A stretch of 64,000 nt of DNA from Variovorax paradoxus NBRC 15149 (GTDB taxonomy: Bacteria > Pseudomonadota > Gammaproteobacteria > Burkholderiales > Burkholderiaceae_C): positions 496,001-560,000 of the forward strand of contig NZ_BCUT01000001.1 in NCBI RefSeq assembly GCF_001591365.1, written 5' to 3'. How positions within the stretch are numbered: the first letter of the stretch is position 1; the number at the start of each line of letters is the position of its first letter. The position numbers and the translations under genes were made by a program. Positions 9,161-11,351 of the stretch are shown one piece after another. The notes under the pieces are model-generated. The model made no database searches. It had not been told where the DNA came from and saw only the letters and a program-made list of their open reading frames with translations.

Positions 9161-9493
9161 TCAGGGCCGTTCGTTCTTGAGCTCGCGCAGCTGCGCCTCG
9201 GCATGTTCGAGCTCGGCCCGCAGCGCGCGGACGTCGTGCTCCAGCTTGTCGATGCGCGCCGCGCGGCTTTGCGGCGGCTCCGATGCCCGGCAGCGCGCCC
9301 GCAGCGCGTCCAGGTTCTCGGCGAGCTGCCGGCGGCGCAGCATCTGGCCCCTGGAGCGGGCCAGGTCCATGTCGTGCTCCAGCGCGGCCTCTTCCGCTTC
9401 GCAGGATGAAGCGGCGCCCTCCGCCGGCTCCGCGGCCTGGGCGAATGCGGGTGCGGCCAGCGCCAGCGCCATGCCCAGGAACCAGCGCTCCAT
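9161..9493 (-). CDS. DUF1090-type small periplasmic protein
   Basis: A 110-residue protein with a signal peptide (FLGMALALAAPAFAQA) and a charged helical body. Two cysteines (CEAEEAALE... and ARCRASEP) and the C-terminal RIDKLEHDVRALRAELEHAE match the DUF1090 (YqjC-like) pattern of short coiled-coil periplasmic proteins of unknown function. The start is uncertain: 9493 begins the signal peptide, and an in-frame ATG at 9511 adds six residues; neither has a strong ribosome-binding site. Confidence 0.7.
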   Translation of the reverse strand: MERWFLGMALALAAPAFAQAAEPAEGAASSCEAEEAALEHDMDLARSRGQMLRRRQLAENLDALRARCRASEPPQSRAARIDKLEHDVRALRAELEHAEAQLRELKNERP

Positions 9494-9600
9494 GCGCAGT
9501 TCGCGCCGCATCCATCGAAGAAGGCCACCATGCCAGGCGAAATCCATTGCACCCACTCCGTTCCATCGGCCTGCCAATGCATGCCGTGGCGCATTCTGTC

Positions 9601-10959
9601 TCAGGCCAGCGCCTCCACGCACAGCGCCGTGACCTTTCCTGCGACCGAGGGATGCGCCTGAAGCGCATGCAGCGCCAGGTCCATCGTGCCCTGCCGCACC
9701 GGCTGCGTGAGCACCAGCAGCTGTGCGCCCATGCCGGGCTGCGCAGCCGCCAGCGCCACCTGCTGCACCGGCACCTGCTGCCCCGCCAGCCAGCCCGACA
9801 CCGCCTCGATCTGGCTGGCGGCTTGCACGGGGATGCGCAGGTAGTGCGCGCCGCATGCCTCGGCGCGGGGCAGCGCCGGCAACGCGCTCATCGCGTGCGC
9901 ATGAAAGCCCAGGTGCGGCACGCGCTGTGCGGCATGGGTGCCGTCCAGCCGCGCCACATCGACCAGGTCGGCAATCACCGCCGATGCGGTCTGTTCGGAG
10001 CCGGCGCCCGCGCCGTAGTACATCGTCACGCCGGACGCATCGCCCTTGACCATCACGGCATTCATCGACCCGCTCACATGCGCCATCAGGTGCGATGCGG
10101 GCACCAGCGCGGGCTGCACGCGCAGCTCCACGCCCTCCTCCCGGCGCCGCGCCACACCCAGCAGCTTGATGCGGTAGCCCAGCTGCTCGGCAGAGGCCAC
10201 GTCCACCCGCTCGAGTGCCGTGATGCCTTGCACCTGCACATCGGCAAGCCGCACGGTGGTGCCGAAGGCATTGGCGGCCAGCAGCGTGAGCTTGTGCGCG
10301 GCGTCGATGCCTTCGATGTCGAAGGCCGGATCGGCCTCCGCATAGCCGAGCGCCTGGGCCTGCGCGAGCGCGGCTGCGAAGTCCAGGCCTTCATCCCTCA
10401 TCTTGCTCAGGATGAAGTTGGTGGTGCCGTTGATGATGCCCGCCACCCACTCGATGCGGTTGGCCGCGAGGCCCTCGCGCAGCGCCTTGACAATGGGAAT
10501 GCTCACCGCCACCGCGCCCTCGTAGGCCACGGCCACCCCATGCCGCCGGGCCGCGGCAAAGATCTCGGCGCCATGCACCGCCAGCAGGGCCTTGTTGGCC
10601 GTGACCACGTGCTTGCCGTGCGCGATGGCGGCCAGCACCCATTCGCGCGCCGGGCCGGTGCCGCCGGCCACTTCCACCACCACGTCGACATCGGGATGGG
10701 TGGCCACGCGCAGCGGGTCGTCCGTGAGCGGAACATCCGCGCCCACGATGGCGGCGGCGCGCACCAGGTTGCGCGCGGCCACCATCACCAGCTCGATGGG
10801 CCGGCCCGCCCGGCCCGCGATCTCGGCCTGGTTGCGCGCCAGCACCCGGAATGTGCCCGAGCCGACGGTGCCGATGCCGATCATCCCCACGCGCAGCGCA
10901 CGGATGGCCGCGGGGCGGCTGGGCAGGGGTTCGAGGGACTGGACTGGATCGCGGTACAT
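9601..10959 (-). CDS. hom: homoserine dehydrogenase
   Basis: Catalyses NAD(P)H-dependent reduction of aspartate semialdehyde to homoserine, the branch point to threonine, isoleucine and methionine. 452 residues: dinucleotide-binding GIGTVGSG at residues 28-35, the family signature region GIINGTTNFILSKM, catalytic EADPAFDIEGIDAAHK, and a C-terminal ACT-like regulatory domain (from about residue 370, HYLRIPVQAASQIEAV) expected to bind threonine. The ATG at 10959 is preferred to the one at 10965 because GGAG is six bases before it and abuts the other. Unlike many relatives it has no threonine synthase gene behind it; the next gene is an unrelated secreted protein. Expression is probably controlled by the leader and terminator described just upstream. 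Confidence 0.93.
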   Translation of the reverse strand: MYRDPVQSLEPLPSRPAAIRALRVGMIGIGTVGSGTFRVLARNQAEIAGRAGRPIELVMVAARNLVRAAAIVGADVPLTDDPLRVATHPDVDVVVEVAGGTGPAREWVLAAIAHGKHVVTANKALLAVHGAEIFAAARRHGVAVAYEGAVAVSIPIVKALREGLAANRIEWVAGIINGTTNFILSKMRDEGLDFAAALAQAQALGYAEADPAFDIEGIDAAHKLTLLAANAFGTTVRLADVQVQGITALERVDVASAEQLGYRIKLLGVARRREEGVELRVQPALVPASHLMAHVSGSMNAVMVKGDASGVTMYYGAGAGSEQTASAVIADLVDVARLDGTHAAQRVPHLGFHAHAMSALPALPRAEACGAHYLRIPVQAASQIEAVSGWLAGQQVPVQQVALAAAQPGMGAQLLVLTQPVRQGTMDLALHALQAHPSVAGKVTALCVEALA

Positions 10960-10975
10960 GGACATCTCCGGATGA

Positions 10976-11008
10976 AAAACAAGAAACCCAGCTGCCAGAG
11001 CTGGGTTT
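10976..11008 (-). terminator. attenuator-type terminator in the hom leader
   Basis: A perfect 10-bp stem (AAACCCAGCT at 10984-10993 with AGCTGGGTTT at 10999-11008, 5-nt loop) followed on the minus strand by TTTCTTGTTTTT. It lies between the leader peptide and the hom start codon, only 17 bp before the latter, so unless read through it would prevent hom expression. This placement is diagnostic of attenuation rather than of ending an upstream gene. Confidence 0.85.
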
Positions 11009-11036
11009 CATTCATTCGGGGAAGAAGAGCGATACA

Positions 11037-11080
11037 CCAGGTGGCTGCCGAAACGGCCACCTGCGCGTGCTCAGGTGGCC
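11037..11080 (-). promoter_or_regulatory. mutually exclusive hairpin arms in the hom leader
   Basis: Three segments can pair alternatively in the RNA: arm 1 GGCCACCTG (11080-11072, containing the last Thr codon and part of the leader stop codon), arm 2 CAGGTGGCC (11063-11055) and arm 3 GCCACCTGG (11045-11037). Arm 2 complements both arm 1 (nine bases) and arm 3 (eight bases), so ribosome position on the leader peptide would decide which pair forms. How arm 3 connects to the terminator was not worked out and needs folding. Confidence 0.6.
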
Positions 11081-11103
11081 GCGGTGGTAATGGTGGTAAT
11101 CAT
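11071..11103 (-). CDS. Thr/Ile-rich leader peptide of hom
   Basis: A ten-codon frame encoding MITTITTAAT followed by TGA: five Thr and two Ile codons, the end products of the pathway that starts with hom. This is the composition expected of a ribosome-stalling attenuator peptide such as ThrL of enteric bacteria, although the sequence is much shorter. A strong GGAGG (11125-11121) lies 17 bases before the ATG but only five before an in-frame TTG at 11115; use of that TTG would give a 14-residue version beginning MVAR. Too short for automatic gene finding. The stop codon lies inside the first hairpin arm. Confidence 0.8.
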   Translation of the reverse strand: MITTITTAAT

Positions 11104-11351
11104 TCGTGCAACCAATGACCCCTCCGCCCGCGCGAAGGCAGGCGGCATCATGCGGGCCATGGAGGCTGCGCAGACGGTGGAGGGGAAGGATTGGCACGGC
11201 ATGAAGCCGCCAGTGTACAGGAGCGGGCCGGACCCGCTTCGACGGCTGGCGCGCCCAGCCTGCGGAATTTCGGGGAGCAGGCCTACAGCAGGCGTGCGGC
11301 CGCAGGCCTAGTGTGCTGGGCAAAGAACTGCATCATCCAGGAGGCAGCATC

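Follow-up and report, generated by a model that had tools for sequence, protein, structure and literature searches.

A candidate ribosome-dependent attenuator family upstream of a second homoserine dehydrogenase gene in Variovorax and its relatives

The window analyzed here, a stretch of 64,000 nucleotides from Variovorax paradoxus NBRC 15149 (contig NZ_BCUT01000001.1, positions 496,001 to 560,000), carries on its minus strand a gene whose product matches the homoserine dehydrogenase models PF00742, PF03447 and NF004976. The gene, hereafter hom2, stands alone; the next gene encodes a DUF1090 protein. A second copy, hom1, is found elsewhere on the same contig: it is 57% identical to hom2 and occupies the canonical arrangement aminotransferase–hom1–thrC (threonine synthase). 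An initial annotation of this DNA had proposed a threonine/isoleucine attenuator at the homoserine dehydrogenase gene of a Comamonadaceae-type organism. The attenuator is supported, but the gene that it precedes is the paralogue and not the canonical hom. The start of the gene also required correction: the conserved start codon is the ATG at 10959 (ATGTAC..) rather than the one at 10965.

In a tree of 79 proteins a single branch (100/100) splits the 41 leader-bearing Hom2 proteins from 38 others – hom1-like betaproteobacterial proteins, a sample of those retrieved – although some hom2 rows are long-branched and their placement is unsure. The Hom1 of the window genome groups with that of Variovorax sp. 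DXTD-1. No Thr/Ile-rich mini-ORF was seen upstream of the 38 hom1-like genes. The Pfam ACT domain scores at the C-terminus of Hom1 and no longer does so in Hom2; it is possible, judging from the protein sequence, that feedback inhibition of Hom2 has been lost, in which case control of expression may have taken its place. Elsewhere in the genome there is a third, partial homoserine dehydrogenase match, covering the NAD-binding half at 36% identity (G000:C7:63612-64043; L003, L153).

Read along the minus strand from 11217 to 10957, a −10 box is followed by an ATG and a 43-codon frame, next by two hairpin arms that overlap and another copy of the arm, and then by a stretch rich in pyrimidines, a perfect hairpin of 11 bp with its U-run and the start of hom (Table 1). 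The 43-codon frame ends ...ARMITTITTAAT-TGA (11071), and its last codons, ATG ATT ACC ACC ATT ACC ACC GCG GCC ACC TGA (11103-11071), include five for Thr and two for Ile. All of the minus-strand elements named in the initial annotation are present, beginning with this MITTITTAAT frame. Its end overlaps arm 1, and the partner of that arm, arm 2, is able to pair with arm 3 instead. The stem and U-tract placed 17 bp before an ATG at 10965 are likewise both there, with a stem of 11 bp and not 10 bp. What had gone unnoticed is that the terminator pairs almost wholly with segment 3, and that a helix enclosing the terminator hides the Shine-Dalgarno sequence of hom2.

Table 1. Features of the hom2 leader in window coordinates; the last two rows give remnant ORFs at other loci.
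Feature	Position	Strand	Basis or remark
Leader promoter −10 box TACACT	11212..11217	−	sequence; 9 nt upstream of leader ATG
Leader peptide ORF, 43 aa, MPCQSFPSTVCAASMARMMPPAFARAEGSLVARMITTITTAAT	11071..11202	−	translation from leaderless mRNA probable
Control codons ATG ATT ACC ACC ATT ACC (M I T T I T)	11086..11103	−	codons −10 to −5 from stop
Arm 1	11072..11082	−	overlaps end of leader ORF and stop codon
Arm 2	11053..11063	−	partner of arm 1 or arm 3
Arm 3	11037..11051	−	11045-11038 pairs with arm 2; 11051-11037 pairs with region 4
Region 4	10988..11004	−	complementary to arm 3; most of terminator hairpin including loop
Terminator hairpin T	10983..11009	−	perfect 11-bp hairpin, −17.1 kcal/mol
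U-tract UUGUUUUU	10975..10982	−	sequence; directly 3′ of terminator hairpin
Anti-Shine-Dalgarno strand of helix S (S encloses T)	11011..11022	−	swap test
Second strand of helix S, with hom2 Shine-Dalgarno GGAG (10969-10966)	10965..10976	−	
hom2, second homoserine dehydrogenase, 452 aa	9601..10959	−	start ATGTAC, conserved
Remnant ORF of L191, 119 aa	2162-2521	−	
Remnant ORF of L195, 114 aa	1182-1526	+	

Six-frame translation of the 64-kb window gives 1279 stop-ended stretches, of which MITTITTAAT alone has at least seven Thr or Ile residues in its last ten codons; 40 simulated windows searched by the same criterion yielded none. The 161-nt leader folds better than 200 of 200 dinucleotide shuffles (z −4.2). 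An open frame of 611 codons lies opposite hom2 and the leader (9283-11118, plus strand); it is probably an artefact of high G+C content and not a gene.

The ten-codon peptide of the initial annotation is in fact the tail of the 43-codon frame that opens at ATG 11202, and the equivalent frames of relatives encode 31–50 aa. The leader ORF has about twice the length of thrL. Support for the upstream start comes from a choice made blind to frame: the first ATG downstream of the −10 box leads into the control codons in frame and without an intervening stop in 67 of 67 leaders (62 from the genus itself, four from named genomes and one plasmid copy). When the 42 leaders from a family-wide search are added, an in-frame ATG is found 6–12 nt downstream of a −10-like hexamer (mode 9 nt) in 109 of 109, a selected count in that the script took any −10-like hexamer plus ATG and retained those in frame. 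The leaders share ancestry, so that neither count equals a number of independent trials. A start at 11103, giving the ten-codon peptide, was rejected on the strength of the 67 frame-blind cases, and also because the inner ATG is replaced by ATA in L113, by CCC in L187 and by AGC in L188.

Across the 109 leaders the peptides come in 18 different lengths, all in register, which implies that insertions and deletions have preserved the reading frame. No such preservation is seen in the spacing between the leader stop and hom2 (30, 30 and 49 leaders by remainder). Within the leader body there is no excess of substitutions at third positions (2928, 2358 and 2363 at positions 1, 2 and 3); with no bias by codon position, it is the frame that appears to have been kept and not the sequence of the peptide, on which no sign of selection is seen. 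Folding of the body is unremarkable (mean z −0.76, 40 leaders), and a pause hairpin that had seemed convincing to the eye there was dropped from consideration. No convincing −35 box was found at the window leader; some relatives (L034, L035, L164) have, by eye, a TTGAC ∼19 nt upstream. The short gap between the −10 box and the ATG would put the start of transcription on the AUG or only a few bases from it, and the leader mRNA is thus probably leaderless.

In a set of 44 non-redundant leaders (near-identical leaders reduced to 41, plus three added by hand) codons −10 to −5 encode Met, Ile or Thr in 249 of 264 cells (T 116, I 70, M 63, S 12, others 3), and substitutions there mostly stay within the three; at −6, for example, 17 of the 44 have ATG in place of ATT. 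The clustering of Thr and Ile stressed in the initial annotation is therefore borne out, with Met to be added to the list. The conserved Met at −10 need not serve as a start, since the frame begins some 20–40 codons before it. Homoserine gives rise to three amino acids, Met, Ile and Thr, and it is possible that the leader is a three-way sensor; an ATG codon is one base from ATT, however, which leaves selection for Met codons unproved.

Arm 2 can pair with arm 1 (helix 1:2) or with arm 3 (2:3), and arm 3 can instead pair with region 4 (3:4); T is the terminator hairpin and S the helix around it. Helix 3:4 dismantles most of T and places the anti-Shine-Dalgarno strand in a loop, while 2:3 spares T. 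The helices thus fall into two sets: 1:2 with 3:4, and 2:3 with T and S. Comparison of the leader sequences indicates that S, 3:4 and T co-vary, that 1:2 does so more weakly, and that 2:3 does not.

The statistics behind this statement were computed on alignment A2 of the 44 leaders. Helix 3:4 is paired in 88.1% of cells and has double changes in 13 cells (0 of 500 shuffles had as many), spread over three pairs (51 of 500); at column pair 80-146 Variovorax has an A.A mismatch, where 8 of the 44 leaders have U-A and 13 have G-C, the position being unpaired in 23. T is 90.7% paired, with four double-change pairs (as many in 1 of 500 shuffles). For 1:2, 92.6% of cells are paired and the covariation score was reached by none of 500 shuffles; its two double-change pairs were reached in 232 of 500. 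Helix 2:3 is paired in 93.4% of cells, with zero double changes, and across the 44 leaders it rises above the shuffles on no measure. In controls in which columns were slid, the true register is clearly ahead in the percentage of cells paired. Its covariation is at times surpassed by chance: register +3 on 2:3 and register +1 on T both score higher than the true one, and T slid by one column likewise has four double-change pairs. An RNAalifold consensus of 21 leaders consists of 1:2 and 3:4.

A further comparison set each native duplex against duplexes with partners exchanged between species, a test in which kinship is still contained in the data. Helix S gave the strongest result (z −6.9, 40 leaders), followed by 1:2 (z −5.9), 2:3 (z −4.3) and 3:4 (z −4.2). 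The control pairs 2:T and 1:T gave z −1.4 and −0.2; the control pair 1:3 also reached z −3.6, so that the swap test is imperfectly specific. In L178 and L182 the Shine-Dalgarno region reads GGAAUG and its S partner CAUUCC. The window copy of S is weak, at −9.6 kcal/mol against a mean of −16.2. Pairing of arm 3 with a segment 0 that precedes the control codons fits the ribosome-free window RNA; across the family this pairing is unsupported (z −1.8), and it is mentioned here as a possibility.

The conservation in relatives on which the initial annotation had staked its case is found for the control codons and for the terminator hairpin, and the hairpin with its adjoining U-rich run is retained in most of the 44 leaders. 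The exception is a sub-clade (L113, L187, L188, L189) that lacks the U-tract; in L180 the tract is weak. Helix S is kept in all five, and these lineages have probably shifted, as far as their sequences tell, from transcriptional to translational attenuation.

The influence of a ribosome on these helices was modeled by removing the part of the RNA that it covers, assumed to reach 12 nt from the A-site codon. Four leaders in which the automatic rule misplaced the terminator (L190, L191, L195, L199) are outside the folding averages and the S test; L188 is for that reason also absent from the ribosome-footprint foldings (39 leaders), but is present in the S test and the ribosome-free folding (40 leaders). 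With RNA reaching to the end of the U-tract and a ribosome stalled at codons −10 to −7, the mean P(3:4) is 0.55–0.65 and 3:4 exceeds T in 54–67% of leaders. A ribosome standing anywhere from −5 to the stop gives P(2:3) of 0.88–0.96 and P(T) of 0.84–0.94, and a stall at −6 gives an intermediate folding. A ribosome standing on the stop codon itself is an ambiguous case: before the 3′ arm of T has emerged, P(3:4) exceeds 0.5 in 33 of 39 leaders, although T wins later. Ribosome-free RNA favors T in 26–29 of 40 leaders, and RNA that escapes translation would thus mostly be OFF.

The window RNA illustrates the dependence on length. During a stall at −8 or −7, 3:4 stands at 0.98 or above until nearly all of T has emerged, whereupon T overtakes it; for RNA ending at the U-tract the equilibrium under an early stall favors T (0.94), and a stall at −4 brings T to 1.00. 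Folding with and without a leader ribosome was the check put forward in the initial annotation. At full length it does not separate the states: in RNA extending to hom2, T dominates the equilibrium structure wherever the ribosome stands (mean P(T) 0.91–0.94; P(3:4) at most 0.04), and accessibility of the Shine-Dalgarno sequence is constant across states at 0.25–0.27. Given that the full-length equilibrium is always T, the switch must be kinetic and rest on the order of folding.

The locus combines clustered end-product codons in a short ORF, a terminator and a hidden ribosome site before the gene, and mutually exclusive helices, features expected of an attenuator. We regard it as reasonably probable, on the basis of the conserved frame and codons, the comparison of the helices and the modeled foldings, that the leader is a ribosome-dependent attenuator of hom2 in which starvation leads to 3:4 and the ON state and plenty leads to 2:3 with T and the OFF state. 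Transcription would begin on the AUG of the 43-codon ORF or a few bases away, and a ribosome translating the leaderless message would reach the control codons M-I-T-T-I-T near its end. Scarcity of charged tRNA for Thr or Ile, and perhaps Met, would stall it on the early control codons. Arm 1 would then be free to pair with arm 2, and arm 3 could capture the emerging terminator region; with 3:4 in place neither the terminator nor the helix hiding the Shine-Dalgarno sequence would form, and hom2 would be made. When the amino acids are plentiful, the ribosome would proceed to the last codons and the stop, covering arm 1. Arm 2 would pair with arm 3, T would fold inside helix S, and hom2 would be shut both by termination and by hidden ribosome binding. 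In the sub-clade devoid of a U-tract, hiding of the ribosome site alone would remain.

The direction of this switch is probably opposite to the textbook one. A ribosome is likeliest to stall at the first scarce codon that it reaches, which would make shortage ON and plenty OFF; and it is 3:4, not 2:3, that overlaps the terminator. For the same reason the ThrL-like logic assumed in the initial annotation is doubtful. A fuller version of this reading – a clade-specific attenuator in which one leaderless peptide senses Met, Ile and Thr together, 1:2 meaning ON and 2:3 OFF, with one structure able to stop both transcription and translation and the U-less lineages purely translational – can be put forward tentatively.

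The strongest competitor keeps the parity of ThrL and TrpL. Here a ribosome starved on the last Thr codons would mask arm 1, so that 2:3 would mean ON and 1:2 would lead to OFF. The parts do follow one another as in the trp and thr attenuators, codons −5, −4 and −1 are frequently Thr (39, 31 and 27 of 44), and the preference of ribosome-free RNA for T recalls classical super-attenuation. Yet 2:3 shares no bases with the terminator and so is unable by itself to block termination. The conserved helix incompatible with the terminator is 3:4, for which arm 3 must be free, and folding couples 2:3 to T. Thr is also kept less strictly at −4 and −1, the positions at which stalling would mask arm 1. 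We consider the classical assignment unlikely.

More improbable again is a mainly translational device, in which T and S together would hide the ribosome site of hom2 and termination would be secondary or absent. It would account well for the lead of S in the swap test and for the retention of S in the four leaders that have lost the U-tract. It accords poorly with the U-rich run directly 3′ of the hairpin in most of the 44 leaders, with the weakness of S in the window copy, and with a Shine-Dalgarno accessibility that at equilibrium is independent of ribosome position. That the leader instead binds an amino acid or a protein in the manner of a riboswitch, its Thr/Ile codons being incidental, is very improbable: the strong sequence conservation of segments 2-3 and the hairpin loop and the lack of codon-position bias in the peptide body would suit it, but the frame is in register in 67 of 67 leaders and over 18 lengths, the six codons are mostly confined to three amino acids, the conserved loop is accounted for by 3:4 pairing, and no Rfam family matches.

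Most descriptions of amino-acid attenuators concern gammaproteobacteria, and there are further examples in alphaproteobacteria and Gram-positive bacteria. Among the closest known systems is the thr operon attenuator of enterobacteria (thrL, which we take to be the Rfam family Thr_leader, RF00506), composed of a Thr/Ile-rich leader ORF, alternative hairpins and an intrinsic terminator. The hom2 leader has the same components before a gene of the homoserine pathway. It differs in serving a single hom2 instead of a thrABC operon, in an ORF that is probably leaderless and has Met in its control block, and in the extra 3:4 and S helices, with the predicted parity reversed. A search of the window against Rfam found no family at its gathering score; Thr_leader is not among the 11 matches at E ≤10, none of which is an amino-acid leader. 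In the his operon attenuator hairpins A:B, C:D and E:F compete with B:C and D:E, so that termination depends on a series of more than four segments whose pairings exclude one another, as it would in the hom2 leader. The chain of the hom2 leader is one step shorter, which would reverse the leader hairpin that accompanies termination; its codons are different and the hiding of a Shine-Dalgarno sequence is added.

Two further systems offer partial parallels. A report on Sinorhizobium meliloti trpL (rnTrpL) describes an RNA whose 5′ end is the ATG of the leader ORF and which is released as an attenuator RNA (PMC7298713). The leaderless peptide is the likeness, inferred for the hom2 leader; the trpL peptide described there is a 14-aa Trp peptide before trpE(G) of an alphaproteobacterium, and belongs to another pathway (PMC7298713). 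For the translational ileS T-boxes of Actinobacteria, another account describes a terminator-type switch re-used to hide the Shine-Dalgarno sequence (PMC1262725), and the U-less hom2 sub-clade would be similar in this respect. Unlike the hom2 leader, the T-box is, on that account, a tRNA-binding riboswitch with no leader peptide (PMC1262725). A hom attenuator of Comamonadaceae was not found in the open-access papers searched, a scope outside which subscription journals largely lie. This kind of attenuator is known; the family and its wiring appear to be new.

A match to hom was obtained in 99 of 101 genomes of the genus, and the leader is present at 62 of 62 of the genus's hom2 loci (identity to hom2 of at least 70%) among the matches listed. 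It represents a well-supported family in betaproteobacteria. Should the proposed reading hold, the same kind of control has here been wired with the opposite hairpin assignment, a 5′-terminal start codon and a built-in translational lock, and a spare homoserine dehydrogenase gains a role that can be tested.

Searches beyond the genus used covariance model R1, which together with Infernal's strict filters may miss divergent members. At the level of the family, leaders were found in 46 of 399 genomes and 17 of 141 genera sampled, the genus itself included; an order-wide sample gave 3 of 399 genomes, all from the same family, and a class-wide sample 1 of 274, the window's own. The extra plasmid copy (L113) is on pTEGF4 of Limnohabitans sp. 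TEGF004, where hom2 and its leader sit between a DUF5666 gene and a gene for an ATP-binding protein, near toxin-antitoxin genes. Seven plasmid hom matches were obtained, of which three were examined; the other two of these, from Microbacterium and Paracoccus ferrooxidans (L114, L115), have no Thr/Ile-rich mini-ORF upstream.

Of the 42 family leaders outside the genus, 39 precede hom2 and three precede a remnant of it. The remnants belong to one genus (L191, L195, L199), in which the leader with its terminator is followed by an ORF of ∼115 aa from which the catalytic domain is absent. This ORF joins the N-terminal stretch of hom2 to an ACT-like C-terminal part, the likeness, judged by eye, being to L190, a relative of the three that carries a full hom2 gene.
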